NCBI RefSeq assembly: GCF_001895925.1
Contig: NZ_MPPI01000018.1
Coordinates: 1 to 64,000 of the forward strand
Origin: Phormidesmis priestleyi ULC007
GTDB lineage: Bacteria; Cyanobacteriota; Cyanobacteriia; Leptolyngbyales; Leptolyngbyaceae
Length of the DNA: 64,000 bases
Direction: 5' to 3'
Shown one piece after another: positions 21,104-62,257 of the stretch. The translations under genes were made by a program, and so were the position numbers. The notes under the pieces were generated by a model. That model was not told where the DNA came from. It worked only from the letters and a program-made list of their open reading frames with translations, and made no database searches. Positions within the stretch are counted from its first letter, which is position 1; each line of letters begins with the position of its first letter.

Positions 21104-22309
21104 TTATCGCTGCGATCGATAAACAGGCAGCGTAAAGTGAAAGCAACTGCCCTGATTGGGGACAGAATCAACCCAAATCTGCCCATAGTGGGCCCGAACG
21201 ATGCGTTGACAGAGCGATAACCCAATCCCGTAGCCCTCTTGAGCTTGATCTCGCTGAAGGCGGAAATGATCTTCAAAAATCCGTTCCCGATTTTCTTCGG
21301 GCACACCTGGCCCGTCGTCACAAATGCTGATCTGCACTTTTTGAGCCGTGCGGTGCAGCATCGAGATGTGAATGGTGCCCTCGATCGGCGTATATTTCGC
21401 GGCATTGTCGAGGATATTCGTCAAAACCTGGCGCACTCGCTCTTCGTCAGCGTAGACGATGGGCAGATCGGTCGGAATGTCTGCATCCACTTTCTGCGAC
21501 TTGGCATGGAAGCGCTCTTCTAAATTCTCTAAAACCGTTTGACAAAGGGCACCGAGTTCTAGCTTTTGCGGCAAAATTTGAAGTTCAGCACTGGTGCCTC
21601 TAGCGGCTTGTAAAATGTCAGTGATCATGCGATCTATGGTGCGAATCTGCGATCGCCCGTGCTTCAACAACTGAGCAGTCAGCGCCGGGGTGAGACGATA
21701 GCCCTGCCCCTCTTGAGCCTTATGACCCATTTCTAGCGTTTCGATGGCGATCGACGCTGCCGTTAGCGGATTTCGCAAATCGTGAGCCAGCATTGAAATA
21801 ATCTGATCTTTAAACTGAAGCTGCGCCTGAAGATCTTCTTTTTCTTTTTTGAGGTTAAAGATTTGATCGGCTAGCTGCAACAATTCAGAAGAATGCGCGA
21901 TCGAGGAAATCTTTGGAGGCTGATCTGAAACAGGAGATTCGGTTTCTTCGAGCACAGAGCCTTCTAACTCAGCCCGGTTTTCTAAAAAGTCTGCAACCGA
22001 GGCTTGCCAGCGTGACCAACAATTTTTGAGTTGAGCAACCAGATTCGTTCCCGTCAAGGTCTGTCGAGGGTCGGGATGAATTTTAATTAGGGCAGGAGTC
22101 GCCACCAAGCGAAAATGCTCGGCTAAATGAGGCTGTTCGCCAACATCAATCACCTGAAGCTCAAACGGATAGTCGGCTCTAAGATCGGTCAAAAAGCGGC
22201 GAATCTGCTGGATTTGCTCTTTTGCCTTGGGTCGCTGATCGACAAACAGCAAGATCTGTAAGGGCACTTCAGCGTTTGTTAACTTTTGGGGAGGTGCCTG
22301 CATCGTCAA
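21104..22309 (-). CDS. sasA: Circadian clock output kinase SasA
   Basis: 401 residues. Residues 15-105 are the KaiB-like thioredoxin-fold sensor ([40 protein letters not shown]) that docks on KaiC. A linker and coiled coil follow, then HisKA with His176 in [10 protein letters not shown] and an HATPase domain ([29 protein letters not shown]). SasA autophosphorylates when bound to KaiC and passes phosphate to RpaA to drive rhythmic transcription. kaiABC and rpaA are not in the window. The gene is monocistronic. Confidence 0.95.
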
Positions 22310-22963: not shown

Positions 22964-24151
22964 ATGAAGATTTTGGTATTGACCTGGGAGTTTCCACCGC
23001 GGATTGTGGGCGGCATTGCCCGTCATGTAGCAGAGCTATACCCAGAGTTGGTCAAGCGGGGGCATGAAATTCATCTGATCACGGTGCAGTTTGGTCAGGC
23101 TCCTCACTATGAAGTGGTCGATGGCGTAGCAGTGCATCGGGTCAGTGTAGACGAGAGCCAAAACTTCTTGCACTGGGTCGCCAACATGAACGACAGCATG
23201 GGTCGGCATGGCGGCAAGCTGATTCGCGAGGAAAGCGCGTTTGAGATCATTCATGCTCACGACTGGTTGGTGGACGATGCCGCGATCGCGCTCAAGCATC
23301 TGTTCAAAATTCCGATCGTGGCGACGATCCACGCGACTGAGGGCGGTCGAAATAACGGCGTTCACACAGAGGCGCAGCGCTATGTCAATGAGAAGGAGCA
23401 GCGATTGGCATACGAGGCATGGCGCGTGATTGTCTGCACAGACTTTATGCGGCGAGAAGTCGAGCGATCGCTATACACGCCCTGGAACAAAATCGATGTG
23501 GTTTATAACGGCATTCGGGCTGAAAAAAAGCAGCGTCACCCAGGGTTTGACTTGCAAGCCTTTCGGCGGCGGTTTGCGGGAGATGACGAGAAAATTGTCT
23601 ATTACGTGGGGCGAATGACCTACGAAAAGGGCATCTCTGTAATGCTCAGTGCCGCGCCAAAAGTGCTGCAAGCAATGGGAACTCAGGTGAAGTTTATCTT
23701 TATTGGCGGGGGCAACACCGATTATCTCAAGGGGCAAGCCTGGAATTTAGGCATTTGGCAAAAGTGCTATTTCACTGGGTTTATGCCCGACGAAGATCTC
23801 GATCGATTTCAGACGATCGCCAACTGCGCCGTGTTTCCAAGTCTCTATGAACCGTTCGGCATTGTGGCGTTAGAAAGTTTTGCGGCACGGGTGCCTGTGG
23901 TCGTGTCAGATGCGGGTGGCTTGCCTGAAGTCGTTCGTCATGGCAAAACAGGGGTCGTGACCTGGACGAACAATTCAGACTCTCTCGCCTGGGGCATTAT
24001 TGAGGTGCTGAAGAACCCTGATTATGCCCAGTGGCTGGTCGAAAATGCCTACAAAGATTTAGCCGTTCGGTTTAACTGGGCAAAGTTGGCACAGCAAACC
24101 GAGGCGGTGTATGGGCGAGTGCTGCATGAACGATCGCAGGTCGAGTGGTAA
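22964..24151 (+). CDS. GT4-family glycosyltransferase
   Basis: 395 residues, two Rossmann domains of GT-B fold. The N-terminal MKILVLTWEFPPRIVGGIAR loop binds acceptor or nucleotide as in glycogen synthase-like GT4 enzymes. The C-terminal donor site has VYYVGRMTYEKG, the E-x7-E motif EPFGIVALE and SDAGGLPEVV. It resembles the cyanobacterial starch-synthase-like/GT4 group rather than classical GlgA, which is longer and starts KxGGL. Donor and acceptor are unknown. It is followed 114 bases later, in the same direction, by the cNMP/polyferredoxin fusion gene. Confidence 0.85.
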   Translation: MKILVLTWEFPPRIVGGIARHVAELYPELVKRGHEIHLITVQFGQAPHYEVVDGVAVHRVSVDESQNFLHWVANMNDSMGRHGGKLIREESAFEIIHAHDWLVDDAAIALKHLFKIPIVATIHATEGGRNNGVHTEAQRYVNEKEQRLAYEAWRVIVCTDFMRREVERSLYTPWNKIDVVYNGIRAEKKQRHPGFDLQAFRRRFAGDDEKIVYYVGRMTYEKGISVMLSAAPKVLQAMGTQVKFIFIGGGNTDYLKGQAWNLGIWQKCYFTGFMPDEDLDRFQTIANCAVFPSLYEPFGIVALESFAARVPVVVSDAGGLPEVVRHGKTGVVTWTNNSDSLAWGIIEVLKNPDYAQWLVENAYKDLAVRFNWAKLAQQTEAVYGRVLHERSQVEW

Positions 24152-24265
24152 CTTTCTAAATTGGCTGACGCGAGACGTAAAGATTGATCTTCTGGGCGAG
24201 TGTTGGCTCTGCGATCGTGATAATCAGTGAGTGTCGAACCACGATCGCACAACCTAAAAAGCGCA

Positions 24266-26794
24266 ATGGATCAAGCAGAGAAGATCACTTGGTTAAAGCA
24301 AAATACAGTGCTGGAGTCGCTCTCAGACGAGACAGTAGGCGCGATCGCGGCGGCAATTCAAGAAGAATCGGTGCAAGAAAATCGACGATTGGTGCTAGAA
24401 GACACGATTCCTCCGGCGGTCTACATTTTGCAGGCGGGGCGGGTTGAGAGCTATCGCACGAGTCAGACCGGGGTTGCCACAGCGACCAGTTTGCTGCCCG
24501 GTGCGATCGTCTATCTCAAAGAGCTACTCATTAACGCTGCTGCTGAAGACACCACCATTACCCTCAGTGATTGTGTGGTGTGGGAGATTCCACGTGCAGA
24601 ATTTCTGGCGCTCACTCAGCAATATCCAGAGATTTCGCAGACGTTTTCTCGCTCTCTGGCAACCGAGTTAGAACTGGTATCGGCTCAACTCGCCTTTGAA
24701 CGAGAGCGGCAGAGCGCGTTGCGCCCCTATGTTGTGCCCAAGGTCAGACGCGGCATTGTCGGCACCAGTCGCTATGCGGTGAGAATTCGGCAAGAGATTA
24801 AAAAAGCGTCTGGCGATCGCCAATCAGTGCTGATCTTTGGCGAACCTGGATTAGAAAAAGACAATACGGCGGCACTGATTCATTTTGGGTCGGACGATCG
24901 TAAAGAACCGATGATTCAGGTGAACTGCAACACCCTGCAACCGAATGGCTCAGAGCTATTCGGGCGAGGCAACAAACTAGGACTGTTAGATTGGATCGGA
25001 CGCGGCACGATTTTGCTCAATAACTTAGAGGCGATTCCCGTTGAGTTAGAAGAAAAATTGGCTCAACTGTTGGCAACTGGCGAGTTTACGCCCATAGATC
25101 GGGAGGGCACAACCCCAACTCCGCGACCGTGTGAAGCTCGGATCATGATGACTTCTGAGAAAATTCTGCCCCGATTAGAGCGCGGAAAACTGGTCGGACA
25201 CACGATTAAAATTCCGCCGTTAAGAGTTCGCAAGGCAGATATTCAGGCTCAAATTGAATATTATCTCAGCTTGCTGTGCCGCTCTAGAGGCATTCCCAAG
25301 CCCAAAATCACGCCAGAAGCGCTGCGCCGTCTGCAAGGCTATGACTTTCCGGGCAACGCGATCGAGTTGCAAAGCCTGATTGCCCGCGCTCTCACCCAAT
25401 CAGACGGAGCCGCAGAGCTGACGGAAGAAGTGTTTTGGTCAGCGAGTCTCAAAAATCGGCGGTTTCGGATCAATTTGCTCAATGCTTATCCCAAACTGCG
25501 GCAGTTTCTTCGCAGCCCCTGGTATCCCGATCGCCTAAATTATGGTTTCACGTTGGGATTTTTTGCCGTCGTCGTAGCGGTGCTGATGTGGGGCCCCCAA
25601 ACCCGCGATCGTAACGTGGCGCTCAATTTCTTTTGGGCGTGGTGGTGGATGCTGATGTTAGCGGCCTTTCCATTTGTGGGGCGGCTGTGGTGTGCGGTTT
25701 GTCCGTTTATGATTTATGGCGAACTGGCCCAAAAATTTTCGTTGTGGATCTATCCCCGAAAGCTTCAGCCCTGGCCCCGTCAAGAAGCCGAAAAGTGGGG
25801 CGGCTGGTTTATTTTTGGGATGTTCGCCCTAATTTTGCTCTGGGAAGAACTGTGGAATCTAGAAAATGTGGCTTATCTGTCGGGCTGTCTGCTGCTGCTG
25901 ATTACGGCGGGGGCGGTGATTTTTTCGCTGCTGTTTGAGCGCCGATTTTGGTGCCGTTATTTGTGCCCGATCGGAGGCATGAATGGCTTGTTTGCCAAGC
26001 TGTCGATGGTCGAACTGCGCGCCCAGCAAGGAATTTGTTCGGCTAGCTGCACAACTTATCAATGCTATAAAGGCGGGCCTCAAAAGGGCGAAGGTCTAGA
26101 GACGGGTGGCTGTCCGGTTTATTCTCACCCGGCTCAACTTCAAGACAACAAAGATTGCGTCCTCTGCATGACCTGTCTCAAAGCCTGTCCCCATCGATCG
26201 GTCGAACTCAATTTTCGACCTCCCGGCATCGAACTCTGGACGACCCACAAACCCAGCTATGCCGAGATTTCCCTCCTATTTTTGCTGTTTGGTGCGGTGT
26301 TTCTGCATCGACTGCCTGAAATCGAACAACAGTTTGGACTAAATTTACAGCTCGATAACTCTGGCATTCACGCTGGAGTGTCGGTTTTGGCGCTGTTGAT
26401 TCCCTCTGCGATCGCGCTTGTCGCCCATGCCTTGATTCGGCTATTTAATGCCAAGCCACGTCCTTTTCTAGAACTGGCTTATGGTTATTTACCGATCGTC
26501 TTAGGCAGCAGTCTTGCTCACTATTTAAGATTAGGCTTAACCGAAGCAGGACGAGTTATTCCAGTGACGATCGCCACGTTTGGCGCAGATACTCAAAATC
26601 TTTCTTTACCCATTGCTGTTGCTGATCCTGCCGTGATCGCGTTCCTTCAGGGCGTAGCATTCATTTTCTCATTTTGGCTGAGTGTTTTTCTGACTCAAAA
26701 AATTGCCCGTCAGCCGATTTGGAATTTATTGCCGCAGCATGTTGCAATGGCAGCGATCGGGTCTATGCTATGGGTGATCACGGTGGGTTGGTAA
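24266..26794 (+). CDS. cNMP-binding / degenerate sigma54-activator AAA+ / membrane polyferredoxin fusion
   Basis: 842 residues from the ATG at 24266; a GTG at 24227 would add 13. Residues 5-140 form a CRP-like cyclic-nucleotide domain. Residues 150-395 follow the layout of a bacterial enhancer-binding AAA+ module, but Walker A reads GEPGLEKDN instead of GExGTGKE, the GAFTGA loop is missing and Walker B reads ILLNNLEAIP. About six membrane helices follow, with NapH/NosR/CcoG-type cysteine motifs: CAVCP, CRYLCP, CSASCTTYQC and the ferredoxin motif CVLCMTCLKACP. It is probably an inner-membrane redox protein whose cytosolic part senses a nucleotide. As far as I know cyanobacteria lack sigma54, so the AAA+ part is likely repurposed. 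Partner and electron route are unknown. Confidence 0.85.
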   Translation: MDQAEKITWLKQNTVLESLSDETVGAIAAAIQEESVQENRRLVLEDTIPPAVYILQAGRVESYRTSQTGVATATSLLPGAIVYLKELLINAAAEDTTITLSDCVVWEIPRAEFLALTQQYPEISQTFSRSLATELELVSAQLAFERERQSALRPYVVPKVRRGIVGTSRYAVRIRQEIKKASGDRQSVLIFGEPGLEKDNTAALIHFGSDDRKEPMIQVNCNTLQPNGSELFGRGNKLGLLDWIGRGTILLNNLEAIPVELEEKLAQLLATGEFTPIDREGTTPTPRPCEARIMMTSEKILPRLERGKLVGHTIKIPPLRVRKADIQAQIEYYLSLLCRSRGIPKPKITPEALRRLQGYDFPGNAIELQSLIARALTQSDGAAELTEEVFWSASLKNRRFRINLLNAYPKLRQFLRSPWYPDRLNYGFTLGFFAVVVAVLMWGPQTRDRNVALNFFWAWWWMLMLAAFPFVGRLWCAVCPFMIYGELAQKFSLWIYPRKLQPWPRQEAEKWGGWFIFGMFALILLWEELWNLENVAYLSGCLLLLITAGAVIFSLLFERRFWCRYLCPIGGMNGLFAKLSMVELRAQQGICSASCTTYQCYKGGPQKGEGLETGGCPVYSHPAQLQDNKDCVLCMTCLKACPHRSVELNFRPPGIELWTTHKPSYAEISLLFLLFGAVFLHRLPEIEQQFGLNLQLDNSGIHAGVSVLALLIPSAIALVAHALIRLFNAKPRPFLELAYGYLPIVLGSSLAHYLRLGLTEAGRVIPVTIATFGADTQNLSLPIAVADPAVIAFLQGVAFIFSFWLSVFLTQKIARQPIWNLLPQHVAMAAIGSMLWVITVGW

Positions 26795-57076: not shown

Positions 57077-57361
57077 TCAAAGGTCGTCAAACGGGTTAAA
57101 AATATCCATCATCGGACGATCGCAGTTAGGCAACTCTGACGGCGGACGATCATTACTCCATGCCCACCAGACCTGACCACACTGACATTGATAAAATTCT
57201 TGCCACTTTTTGCGATAGTCGTCTGAAAAGACGGGCGATCGTCGATTCACCCAAACGTGATCGGCTTCGAGGCAAGACTTATGGCAAGCCGGGCAGCAAA
57301 ACTCGTGAGCGTGGATGGCGGGTTCAGTCCAGGTCGGAGCGGTTGGATTAAAAGCGTCCAT
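57077..57361 (-). CDS. Small zinc-ribbon-like protein
   Basis: 94 residues. CPAC, then a second pair CQCG about 37 residues later, suggest a split zinc ribbon (FCCPACHKSCLEADHVWVNR, YQCQCGQVWWAW). The end PMMDIFNPFDDL is acidic. No family name is certain. Short upstream region shared with the CNT gene on the other strand. It is probably real because the cysteine pattern is not explained by the opposite frames. Confidence 0.6.
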   Translation of the reverse strand: MDAFNPTAPTWTEPAIHAHEFCCPACHKSCLEADHVWVNRRSPVFSDDYRKKWQEFYQCQCGQVWWAWSNDRPPSELPNCDRPMMDIFNPFDDL

Positions 57362-57553
57362 GAATCAACGAATGAAGGCGACTCTGCTTATTATGACCTT
57401 TTCAAGGATTGGCGTAGCGATTTTGGGTCAGGGCGATCGCTAGAATTAAGTGCGCCGATCGAGTCGTTTTTAGGTATCGTCTTAGTGATGCCGTTCATCT
57501 ACCTTGAGAGTAGTCCTGAAAAACGTTTCGCCCTCGTTGAAGGATTCAGCCCC

Positions 57554-59095
57554 ATGAGTCTGCTCAATCTCATCTCATTTTTTGGCATTTTTGGCTTGTG
57601 TGCGATCGCGTGGCTCTTCTCAGAAAACCGCAGTCTGCGAGTCTTTCCCTGGCGCGTGTTTAGCATGGGAATTCTTTTGCAACTGGTGCTAGGAGCGCTA
57701 GTTTTTTGGTTGCCCTTTACAAGAGAGGCGCTGCAAGTCTTTAGTAATTTGTTAGATGGAGTGTTTCTGGCCGCAGACACTGGCGCAAATTTTGTCTTTG
57801 GAAACAATATAGTTCCTTTGCCGACAAAACCTGCAAGCGTCAACCTGGGTTATATTTTTGCCTTTCGAGCGTTGCCGACCGTAATCTTTTTCTCTGGATT
57901 GATGGCGTTGCTCTACAACATTGGAGTGATTCAAGTTGTCACCAACGTGTTTGCAAAAGCATTCTATACAACGATGCGATTGAGTGGGGCTGAAGCGTTG
58001 AGCGGCGCGGCGAATATCTTTGTGGGCATTGAGGCGGCGATCGTCGTCAAGCCCTTCTTGGCAAAAATGACCCGCAGCGAACTCTGTGCGATTTTATCTT
58101 GCTGTTTTGGAACGGCGGCTTCATCGGTGCTGGCAATCTATGTGAGCTTCTTGCGTCCTGTCTTTCCCAATATTTTGGGGCATTTGGTTTCGGCTTCGAT
58201 TATTGCAATTCCTGCCTGTTTTGTGTTGTCTAAAATTTTGGTGCCAGAAACCGAGATTCCGCTGACAGCGGGTGGCATTCCAGTTGAGACTGACGACAAT
58301 GAAGACTTTGAAGGTGCGCCGAGAGAAAGAGTTGGAGGCGAACCCATTGAGCGAGTTAGCCCACTGGATGCAGCGATCGTAGGTGCCTTAGACGGGGTGA
58401 AAATGTCGGTGTCGATCGCCGCAGTCCTCATCCTAATTTTGGGGTTAGTTTCGCTAATCAATCAAATTTTTGCAGGCTTGGCAGGCATTCCCGGTGTGAT
58501 TGGTCAGTTTTTTGGCATTGTCACTTTGGCGAATATCGCGGGTGTATTGTTCTTGCCATTTACATTTTTGACGGGGGTCTCTCTAGAGTGGAACGAACTG
58601 TGGGAATCGTCAGTGATTATTGGGCGCAGACTGCTCGAAACCGCGATTCCGCCTTATCAGGCATTGGCGATCGCCGCCGCTCGTCCGGTGAATCCTCTCA
58701 GCGATCGTGCGGTTTTGATCGTTAGCTACGCGCTGTCTGGGTTTGCTCACCTGGCATCGGTTGGCATTTTTGTGGGAGGCACGATCGCGCTGATTCCGTC
58801 TCCTCGTAAAGATATCTCAGAGCTTGGCTGGAAAGCCCTGTTTGTCGGCACGTTAGCCACTTTAATGATTGCGTGTGTAGCAGGGTTTTATGACACCGGA
58901 AGCACTAGCATTTTGGGCAATAAACCAGCACCTGCGGTCATTGCTCCCGCAAGTGTGCCCTCTCCGCCCCCGGCTGCGGTGCCTGCAAAAGCTTCCCCTG
59001 CTGCAAAAACTCTTTCTGTTCCGGCGGTTCCATCATCTGAGAAGGCAGCCAAGCCTGCTAAGGCGACGACTCAAAAACCCGCAGTGGCTCGTTGA
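57554..59095 (+). CDS. Concentrative nucleoside transporter (NupC/CNT), copy 1
   Basis: 513 residues from ATG 57554 (MSLLNLISFFGIFGLCAIAW). The frame extends 99 codons upstream, but that part looks non-coding. The CNT signature lies in LSGAANIFVGIEAAIVVKPF and MTRSELCAIL, with the Glu of GIEAA at the nucleoside site. A Pro/Ala/Lys-rich tail (about 60 residues) is unusual for the family. CNT proteins import nucleosides with sodium or protons. A paralogue lies at 60836. Confidence 0.88.
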   Translation: MSLLNLISFFGIFGLCAIAWLFSENRSLRVFPWRVFSMGILLQLVLGALVFWLPFTREALQVFSNLLDGVFLAADTGANFVFGNNIVPLPTKPASVNLGYIFAFRALPTVIFFSGLMALLYNIGVIQVVTNVFAKAFYTTMRLSGAEALSGAANIFVGIEAAIVVKPFLAKMTRSELCAILSCCFGTAASSVLAIYVSFLRPVFPNILGHLVSASIIAIPACFVLSKILVPETEIPLTAGGIPVETDDNEDFEGAPRERVGGEPIERVSPLDAAIVGALDGVKMSVSIAAVLILILGLVSLINQIFAGLAGIPGVIGQFFGIVTLANIAGVLFLPFTFLTGVSLEWNELWESSVIIGRRLLETAIPPYQALAIAAARPVNPLSDRAVLIVSYALSGFAHLASVGIFVGGTIALIPSPRKDISELGWKALFVGTLATLMIACVAGFYDTGSTSILGNKPAPAVIAPASVPSPPPAAVPAKASPAAKTLSVPAVPSSEKAAKPAKATTQKPAVAR

Positions 59096-59125
59096 CGATC
59101 GCCCATAAACTCAAGTTTGTATTGC

Positions 59126-60811
59126 ATGACTTTCCTTAAATCCTTAATTCCAGAAAAAGATCAGATTGGGTTGCAGCGATCGTACTTACTCGCCGCAATT
59201 TTTTTTACGATCGTGTTGCTGATTTCGCTAAACCGCTATTTTGTTTTTTATGCATCTTATGATCACGGATTGTTTAATCAAGTTTTTTGGAACAATTTGC
59301 ATGGGCGTTTCTTCCAAAGTTCTCTAACGTCTGCAAATTCGGTTGCATCGTTAGAAGATGGCGTGATTCCAACCGTGCATTTTTTGCACTTAGCTCATCA
59401 TTTCGTCTTAGATTTCCTGCTGTGGATTCCTCTCTATGCAGTGTTTCCTCATCCAGTGACGTTAATCGTGTTGCAGGTTGGGTTGACCACCATTGCAGGA
59501 CTCGTACTCTACGCATTGGCGCGGCATTATCTTCAGCCTCAATTATCGCTGTGGATTACAGGCAGCTATTACGCTGCGATCGCCGTGATCTCTCCAACCC
59601 TTGCTAATTTCTATGAGCAGTGTCAGATTCCTCTGTTTACGTTTGCGTTGCTGTTAGCGTTAGAAAAACAGCGCTGGGGCTGGTTTTGGCTGTGTGCTCT
59701 GCTCGTGCTAGGAAGTCGGGAAGACGCAGGGATCGTGCTCTTTGGGGTCGGAGTCTATCTAGTGCTGAGTCGCCGCCATCCTTGGACTGGGTTAGCCGTG
59801 TGTTTGACCAGCTTTAGCTATATGGCGATCGTGACCAGCCTCATCGTGCCGCAAATCTCTACAGACAGTTCACGATTGTATTTTGCCCATCGGTTTAAGC
59901 AGTTTGTAGACAGTCCAAATCCGACCATAATGCAGGTGCTGTGGGGAATGGTGACAAGGCCGATCGCGCTGCTTTCTAGCCTGTTTTTGCCCCTCGATCG
60001 CCGCCTCAGCTATCTCGCCGGACAGTGGCTCTCGCTCGCGTTCATCCCCGCTCTGTCGCCGACTGCTTGGACGATCGCCGGATTTCCACTGTTAGCGCTG
60101 TTTTTGCAATCAGGACTTTCTGCCCTATCGCTCAATCTGCGCTATGCCTTGGCGGTGGTGCCCGGACTGTTTTATGGAGCGGTGCTGTGGTGGTCGCGCC
60201 ATCCTCATTGGTTTACGCCCCGGTTTCGCCGCTTTTGGAGCGTTTGCCTGGTGTTCTCGATCGTCTTCACGGTGACTAACAATCCCAATCGGGCGCTGTC
60301 GTTTATGGTTCCTGACTCGATTCGTCCCTGGGTGTTTGTGCCGCTGACGCGCCAGTGGAACCATGCTCACCAGATCAATCAGGTGATTCGTCAAATTCCT
60401 GCGGATGCCAGCGTTTCTGCTAGCACTTATTTAATTCCTCATTTGTCGAGTCGGCGGGCGATCATTCGACTGCCAAGACTCCAGATTCGCGACGATCGTG
60501 ACCAGGTGATCACTGTAGACTATGCGGTTGCCGATTTGTGGCAGATGCAAGAATATCAAAAGGCGTTTGCAGATAGCTTGGCTGATTTGCAAGCAACGCT
60601 GCCCACGTTAGAAAGAATTTCGGCTGACGGAACCTATGGGGTGCTTGACGTTCAAGATGGAGTAGTGTTGATGCAAAAGGGTGTCTCATCAAACCCTGAA
60701 GCCCTAGCAGCTTGGCAAACCCTGAAAGCAGAAATCAAGCAAAAATCTCAATCTCAATCTTCTGCAAGACTCGATCCGAATGTTGATAGACTTGCTGAAA
60801 ATCAGATTTAA
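59126..60811 (+). CDS. DUF2079 polytopic membrane protein
   Basis: 561 residues from ATG 59126. ASYDHGLFNQVFWNNLHGRF near residue 43 is the DUF2079 hallmark. About ten membrane helices are followed by a soluble C-terminal part. The family is GT-C-like, with Asp in the first loop, but no activity is established. It lies between the two CNT genes with 30 and 24 base spacers, so all three are probably one operon. Confidence 0.82.
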   Translation: MTFLKSLIPEKDQIGLQRSYLLAAIFFTIVLLISLNRYFVFYASYDHGLFNQVFWNNLHGRFFQSSLTSANSVASLEDGVIPTVHFLHLAHHFVLDFLLWIPLYAVFPHPVTLIVLQVGLTTIAGLVLYALARHYLQPQLSLWITGSYYAAIAVISPTLANFYEQCQIPLFTFALLLALEKQRWGWFWLCALLVLGSREDAGIVLFGVGVYLVLSRRHPWTGLAVCLTSFSYMAIVTSLIVPQISTDSSRLYFAHRFKQFVDSPNPTIMQVLWGMVTRPIALLSSLFLPLDRRLSYLAGQWLSLAFIPALSPTAWTIAGFPLLALFLQSGLSALSLNLRYALAVVPGLFYGAVLWWSRHPHWFTPRFRRFWSVCLVFSIVFTVTNNPNRALSFMVPDSIRPWVFVPLTRQWNHAHQINQVIRQIPADASVSASTYLIPHLSSRRAIIRLPRLQIRDDRDQVITVDYAVADLWQMQEYQKAFADSLADLQATLPTLERISADGTYGVLDVQDGVVLMQKGVSSNPEALAAWQTLKAEIKQKSQSQSSARLDPNVDRLAENQI

Positions 60812-60835
60812 TAACCTTTTTGGTCAATATTGATA

Positions 60836-62257
60836 ATGACGTGGTTAAACCTTTTGTCTTTTGTCGGCATTTTTGCGCTCTGCGGCATCGCCTGGTTAGG
60901 GTCTGAAAACCGTCGCGTGATTCCCTGGAAGGTGATCATCTGGGGCCTTGGCTTGCAGTTAGTGTTGGGGCTGCTCGTCTTTTCCTTTCCCGGCACCCGG
61001 CTTGTGATTCAAGCGCTCAGTGATGGCGTTAACGCGATCTTAGATGCCACCGAAACAGGCGCGCGGTTTATTTTTGGTTCTCTGCTTGTGCCTGAGCCAA
61101 ATCGGGTGCCGGGTCCCGTTTTAGCAGGGCGCTGGATTGCACGAGCCGTCACGCCGCCTTATGTGCCAGTGGCGGGCGATCGTCTCAGCCCTGATAATCT
61201 CAACTTGGGCTATGTCTTCGCGTTTCGGGCGCTGCCGTCGGTGATCTTCTTCTCGGCGTTGATGTCGCTGTTTTACCATTTGCGGTTGATTCAACCGATC
61301 GTCAATGTCTTCGCCAAGTTGTTTCGCCGCACAATGGGCTTGAGCGGCGCAGAAGCGTTAAGTGGCGCGACTAATATTTTTGTTGGAATCGAGTCGGCTC
61401 TGGTCGTCCGTCCGTTTTTAGCGGAGATGACTCGCAGCGAGTTGTGTGCCGTTCTCACCGCTTGCTATGGCAGCATTGCTTCAACGGTTTTAGCGCTTTA
61501 CGCGCAGCTACTGCGTCCCGTTTTTCCTAACATTACTGGACATTTGATTTCGGCTTCGATCATGGCAATTCCGGCTTGCTTTGTCGTGTCTAAACTGCTG
61601 GTGCCCGAAACCAATGTGCCTAAAACGTTGGGGAGTCTGCCAGCAGAGATCCCCGAAGATGCGAGTAAAGAAACGAATGCAATGGAAAGCGTGATCACGG
61701 GCGCAATGGATGGCGTGAAATTGGCGATCGCGATCGCGGCTCTTTTAATCGCTGTTTTAGGATTAGTTGCCCTCGTCAATCTTTTCTTTGGCAATCTCGC
61801 ATCACTGGCGCAAAGCAATAATCTATTTATTCGTCGTCTCGGTCTGATTTTTGAAGTCGTGACGTTACAAAACATTGTCGGCGCACTGTTTTTGCCGTTG
61901 ACTTTTTTAACAGGCATTTCGCTCAACTGGCAAGAGCTTTGGCAATCGTCGGTTTTAATCGGACGCAGATTGCTCGAAACCGAAGTTCCGGTTTATCAGC
62001 AGTTAGCGGTTTTAGCAGACAAAGGCGCAATCAGCGATCGGGCCCTGCTGATCGTCAGCTATGCGCTCTGTGGTTTTGCCCATCTACCCGCCGTGGGCAT
62101 CTTTGTTGGGGGATTTGTGAGCCTGATTCCGTCTCGCCGCAAAGATCTGAGCGAGTTAGGCTGGAAGGCTCTCTGGGCAGCGACATTAGCGACTTTAATG
62201 ATCGGCTGTGTCGCGGGCGTATTTGCGTCGAACAATCCGACAATTTTAGGCAGATAA
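60836..62257 (+). CDS. Concentrative nucleoside transporter (NupC/CNT), copy 2
   Basis: 473 residues from ATG 60836 (MTWLNLLSFVGIFALCGIAW). It has the same core as copy 1 (LSGATNIFVGIESALVVRPF, MTRSELCAVL) with an extra loop at about 95-130 and no Pro-rich tail. It is complete. The pair suggests duplication followed by divergence; substrate differences cannot be judged. It ends 20 bases before the secreted-protein gene. Confidence 0.9.
   Translation: MTWLNLLSFVGIFALCGIAWLGSENRRVIPWKVIIWGLGLQLVLGLLVFSFPGTRLVIQALSDGVNAILDATETGARFIFGSLLVPEPNRVPGPVLAGRWIARAVTPPYVPVAGDRLSPDNLNLGYVFAFRALPSVIFFSALMSLFYHLRLIQPIVNVFAKLFRRTMGLSGAEALSGATNIFVGIESALVVRPFLAEMTRSELCAVLTACYGSIASTVLALYAQLLRPVFPNITGHLISASIMAIPACFVVSKLLVPETNVPKTLGSLPAEIPEDASKETNAMESVITGAMDGVKLAIAIAALLIAVLGLVALVNLFFGNLASLAQSNNLFIRRLGLIFEVVTLQNIVGALFLPLTFLTGISLNWQELWQSSVLIGRRLLETEVPVYQQLAVLADKGAISDRALLIVSYALCGFAHLPAVGIFVGGFVSLIPSRRKDLSELGWKALWAATLATLMIGCVAGVFASNNPTILGR

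Follow-up and report, generated by a model that had tools for sequence, protein, structure and literature searches.

A degenerate sigma54-activator domain fused to a NapH-like iron-sulphur membrane protein in cyanobacteria without a detectable sigma54 gene

Membrane polyferredoxins of the NapH/MauN kind (TIGR02163) carry four transmembrane (TM) helices, CxxCP and CxxxCP motifs on the cytoplasmic side and a ferredoxin-like segment after them, and enhancer-binding proteins such as PspF, NtrX, NifA and FleQ have an AAA+ core and lid. Some activators, namely VpsR, TyrR and the NtrC of R. capsulatus, work without sigma54 and retain DNA binding. A gene in the 64,000-nucleotide stretch of Phormidesmis priestleyi ULC007 DNA analysed here (the window) encodes a protein with the listed NapH/MauN features; it differs in its rewritten first ferredoxin motif, five extra TM helices and a 400-residue N-terminal extension, and no nap or mau genes were seen near it. 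The protein resembles the enhancer-binding proteins in the sequence and fold of its AAA+ core and lid, but it is attached to the membrane and lacks the GAFTGA loop, the Walker B acids, the arginine fingers and a DNA-binding domain. It shares with VpsR, TyrR and R. capsulatus NtrC an activator module that exists without sigma54; those proteins, however, keep an HTH and regulate transcription, whereas the window protein is without an HTH and continues into a membrane protein. Its membrane Fe-S half aligns with '4Fe-4S binding proteins' of Deinococcus ficus (locus L091; ~410 residues, 33%) and of a haloarchaeon (L092; ~350 residues, 26%), which have neither the cNMP nor the AAA+ part and lie among other neighbours. 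Since such stand-alone relatives are present in Deinococcus and haloarchaea, the fusion looks like an add-on to a pre-existing module.

The gene is one unbroken open reading frame (ORF) of 842 codons (Table 1), and we prefer its ATG to the upstream GTG because the orthologous frames of L016, L003 and L012 begin exactly there. It encodes, in order, a cNMP-type domain (Pfam cNMP_binding, E 2.4e-11), a sigma54-activator AAA+ module (Sigma54_activat, 2.6e-13) with its lid (AAA_lid_14, 3.6e-10), a NapH-like membrane polyferredoxin (Fer4_5, 2.2e-8) and five further TM helices. NCBIfam models of the NtrX/NorR/PspF type matched with an E-value of 5.7e-22 at best, the others more weakly and all far below their curated cut-offs; the NapH/MauN model matched at 2.7e-13, its 50 bits not reaching the cut-off of 213. 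The initial annotation, made by reading the sequence, had proposed a membrane polyferredoxin, a cNMP domain and a degenerate sigma54-activator AAA+ module in one protein, and the ORF, Pfam and NCBIfam uphold this; all the Pfam families that it named (cNMP_binding, Sigma54_activat, Fer4_5/Fer4) were matched, Fer4 weakly. The frameshift or assembly join of two genes that it had considered is excluded, because the same one-ORF architecture is repeated in dozens of genomes.

Table 1. Features of the gene, its surroundings and related loci; coordinates are those of the window unless a locus is named.
Feature	Residues	Coordinates	Strand	Remarks
Whole gene	842 aa	24266..26794	+	One ORF; GTG in the same frame at 24227 is another start candidate
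cNMP_binding-type domain	34-120	24365..24625	+	Cassette Arg/Glu absent: residue 93 is Ala, 84 is Leu
Sigma54_activat AAA+ core	164-299	24755..25162	+	From Pfam and alignment; P-loop GEPGLEKDN 192-200; LFGR 231-234, then no GAFTGA loop; LNN 251-253 at Walker B LDE position; SEK at sensor I ATN position
AAA lid	320-382	25223..25411	+	Arginine-finger segment deleted just N-terminal; sensor II Arg variable
TM helices 1-2	~429-479	25550..25702	+	End in C476-x2-C479-P; from hydropathy, invariance and models
TM helices 3-4 with C563-x3-C567-P		25805..25966	+	WCRYLCPIGGMNG; from hydropathy and invariance
Predicted cytoplasmic ferredoxin-like segment		26036..26190	+	C591-x3-C595-x4-C600-x15-C616P, then C631-x2-C634-x2-C637-x3-C641P
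C-terminal membrane half	661-842	26246..26791	+	~Five TM helices; no Pfam family
Group-1 glycosyltransferase		22964-24151
Histidine kinase		21104-22309	-	N-terminal KaiB domain
Concentrative nucleoside transporters		57257-59095; 60830-62257	+	Flank ORF 59117-60811
Type-2 island of ULC007		L049 4502-14001		DsbA-like, type 2, cysK, NUDIX, RrpB-like regulator, acsF, heme oxygenase, hemN
Tandem activators, f38 genomes		L075 5249-7210	-
		L076 5290-7590
		L077 1087-3111	-
Orphan sigma54 DNA-binding domain, G125	202 aa	L079 4915-5523	-

A profile search that was positive in control genomes did not find Sigma54_AID in the ULC007 genome, and full Sigma54_DBD/CBD was not found in the phylum sample or in nine genomes checked. 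Sigma54_DBD scored above the cut-off in only two genomes of the sample (G224, 23 bits; G125, 62 bits), and Sigma54_CBD was absent from G125 and eight other genomes; the G125 match is an orphan protein with the sigma54 DNA-binding domain alone. The initial annotation had taken cyanobacteria to lack sigma54, and in these genomes no full rpoN was found. In ULC007 the two best Sigma54_activat matches are the type-1 and type-2 genes of the family described here, the remainder scoring ~31 bits or below, and in 39 related genomes the top matches fall in frames of the size of this family. Separately, f38 genomes, which belong to the same phylum, encode proteins with two tandem sigma54-activator AAA+ modules (447 bits over both) whose motifs are largely kept; a sigma54 gene was not detected in these genomes, and the tandem proteins may have another polymerase partner or a sigma54 too divergent to detect.

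Aligning the AAA+ part with PspF and NifA revealed a series of losses: firstly, the window protein reads SELFGR-GN----KLGLLDWIGRGTILLNN, with the GAFTGA loop deleted (~eight residues, in 17 of 17 representatives of the three groups of the family) and the Walker B acids replaced; secondly, the arginine-finger segment (FRADLLDRL in PspF, FRxDLYYRL in true activators) is deleted in all three subfamilies, a change that the initial annotation overlooked; thirdly, the Walker B Glu and sensor I (ATN to SEK) are replaced in all groups, and the sensor II Arg varies. Even the top-scoring orthologues (L161-L164, up to 87 bits) have the same motif losses, and intact ATPase motifs in orthologues accompanied by rpoN were not found. 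Within type 1, the window protein's own subfamily, K198, D199 and N200 are present in all 43 proteins, N252 and N253 in 42 of them, and E367 is invariant. The P-loop Lys is present in every copy; among the 43 type-1 proteins the residue before it (Glu197 in the window protein) is Glu 28 times and Gly 11 times, and Gly is kept in 11 of 11 type-2 paralogues, which mostly read GTGKT. Thus the earlier statement that Walker A, the GAFTGA loop and Walker B are altered describes real and conserved changes, but Walker A is not uniformly degenerate, so that nucleotide binding could still occur, and the GAFTGA loop is deleted, not altered.

The fold of the module agrees with its ancestry: Foldseek returned NtrX, FlrC and PspF as top matches (2e-12), and PDB sequence searches gave matches down to 4e-18, the N-terminal domains being usable in a full-length model with a pLDDT of 61.5. 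Directly after the lid comes the membrane protein, with no DNA-binding domain C-terminal of the AAA+ part and no HTH or other output domain. The AAA+ domain is under purifying selection: against Phormidesmis priestleyi its dN/dS is 0.059, between the values of the Fe-S core (0.043) and the cNMP domain (0.105). Judged by its motifs, the module is a descendant of enhancer-binding proteins that is unable to act as one, and ATP hydrolysis by the normal mechanism is excluded. With the activator domain disabled and its sigma54 partner missing, what was once a gene switch seems to have become a permanent component of a redox protein. The repurposed regulator that the initial annotation had suspected, in a lineage without rpoN, is thus borne out, and clearly exemplifies how a sigma54 activator can outlive the missing sigma54 through a change of job.

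The cNMP domain has fared differently. In an ungapped reading against the protein kinase A cassette (GE...PRAAT), both ligand-contacting positions of the window protein are substituted (Table 1), and no type-1 or type-2 protein in the tally has Arg at the Arg position, the Glu position being Leu or Tyr. The domain is missing altogether from the f19-family proteins and from L071, L072, L073, L084, L086 and L069, several type-1 copies being without it. It is also the least conserved domain of the window protein, with 46% identity across 36 orthologues, as compared to 56% for the C-terminal TM half, 63% for AAA+ and 81% for the Fe-S core.

By contrast with the other cysteines, which vary, 12 cysteines of the membrane Fe-S part are invariant in 64 of 64 homologous proteins, as are the motifs CxxCPFM, CRxLCPxGGMNG and CxxCxxCxxxCP. 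Together with the TIGR02163 match, this supports the NapH-like iron-sulphur membrane protein proposed at the outset. The second 4Fe motif is canonical, while the first is altered to C-x3-C-x4-C-x15-C, so that the cluster there may be atypical or have a regulatory role. According to hydropathy and both models, the chain probably crosses the membrane in four TM helices, places the Fe-S segment in the cytoplasm and ends in about five more helices; the AlphaFold membrane half is poor (pLDDT 60, the Fe-S segment mostly below 35), and a PDB profile search with this half returned ferredoxin motifs only. In the C-terminal half Y739 and E760 are conserved and H681 mostly so.

Across the phylum, 104 of the 386 genomes sampled have a strong homologue (E < 1e-50, fragments included), and the family falls into three groups: type 1 (~840 aa), with the window protein; type 2 (~900 aa, sharing 37-39% identity with that protein), of which ULC007 has a copy elsewhere in its genome (G000:C42, locus L049); and a group of ~660-810 aa restricted to family f19. 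Within f19, 62 of 151 genomes carry the protein; most of the small genomes listed as lacking it are below 2 Mb. A phylogeny built from the membrane half resolves type 2 as one clade and the f19 proteins as another (100/100 each); support for the type-1 clade is weak. Two f19 genomes also have type 2, and their copies nest among those of distant cyanobacteria; as two type-2 genes are moreover plasmid-borne, type 2 seems mobile between lineages. We found no paper on the family, and the protein, widely kept in cyanobacteria with its 12 invariant Fe-S cysteines, has been assigned no role that we found in the open literature. Synechocystis slr0593, a 'cAMP binding membrane protein' (PMC3516471), is a possible relative and a lead only. 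The annotated records examined label family proteins either by a domain alone or as 'nitrogen assimilation regulatory protein', a name against which the present analysis argues.

A synteny comparison revealed no conserved operon or neighbour genes for type 1 or the f19 group; acsF and hemN lie near the gene in the f19-family loci L135, L145, L146 and L149 but not in most, and we give this no weight. Of 20 type-2 loci, 14 have a co-oriented cysK immediately 3' of the gene, versus 0 of 28 type-1 and 0 of 28 f19 loci (Fisher p 6e-11, kinship not corrected; loci with enough sequence, re-cut duplicates left out). Type-2 islands contain cydAB (cytochrome bd), psbA, petC, DsrE, rhodanese, DUF3365/DUF4079 and HdrABC-like genes. 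Gene sets of this kind are those of low-oxygen or sulphide life, and the type-2 paralogue marks islands that may allow cyanobacteria to live with sulphide or little oxygen. Type 2 probably does the same job as type 1 for sulphide or low-oxygen metabolism, its context being a mere hint for the role of type 1.

We propose, at about an even chance of being right, that the window protein is a membrane electron carrier of the NapH kind whose hydrolysis-dead activator domain serves as a docking or regulatory platform. Electrons would pass between the membrane pool, probably quinone, and a soluble or peripheral partner, by way of 12 cysteines on the predicted cytoplasmic face that would suffice for three [4Fe-4S] clusters. 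The cNMP-like and AAA+ domains would be the fossil of a sigma54 activator, the latter having lost ATP hydrolysis and sigma54 contact and being retained for docking, oligomerisation or ATP/ADP sensing, positioning or regulating the redox part. Whereas the domain order, its conservation, the lost catalytic elements, the missing rpoN, the purifying selection and the gene context of type 2 are observed here, we infer how many clusters there are, the topology, which way electrons move, that quinone is used and what the AAA+ part does. In a bolder version, which we think improbable, the dead motor was fixed early in cyanobacterial history, senses ATP/ADP without hydrolysis and gates a hitherto unrecognised electron route linking the quinone pool with cytoplasmic metabolism, with type 2 as its mobile sulphide or low-oxygen form.

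NosR/NirI-type proteins have been proposed to act as membrane redox sensors, and as the second likeliest reading, less probable than the carrier, the window protein may be one: its clusters would respond to O2, sulphide or the redox state, with the pseudo-activator relaying the signal to a cytoplasmic transcription factor, kinase or enzyme. The regulatory origin of the N-terminal domains fits this, as do the type-2 islands, with genes of a kind that respond to sulphide or scarce O2 and, in ULC007, an RrpB-like redox transcription factor; but an output domain is missing, about nine TM helices and 12 cysteines exceed what a sensor needs, and no regulator gene is conserved next to type 1. It is very unlikely that the AAA+ module is an active motor of a non-sigma54 kind energising the redox part, for the lost Walker B Glu, sensor I and arginine-finger segment outweigh a universal P-loop Lys and the GTGKT of type 2. 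The initial annotation offered a nucleotide-gated or a scaffolded redox protein, linking a second messenger to membrane electron flow. Of these the scaffold is the better half: gating has the Pfam match in its favour, but with the phosphate-binding Arg and Glu gone, the domain lost in some lineages and its conservation the lowest, it is unsupported, and we give it still less credence than the motor. A true sigma54-dependent activator, or an artefactual join, has practically no probability, the Pfam name being all that speaks for it against the missing rpoN, GAFTGA loop and DNA-binding domain and the identical fusion in dozens of genomes.

In its own locus, the gene is preceded by the glycosyltransferase and followed by a gene whose 225-aa product belongs to no Pfam family, a neighbourhood common to some near relatives only. 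Near the gene lies the KaiB-domain histidine kinase, of the type of the clock output kinase SasA, and farther along the window are the two co-directional nucleoside transporters with the ORF between them.
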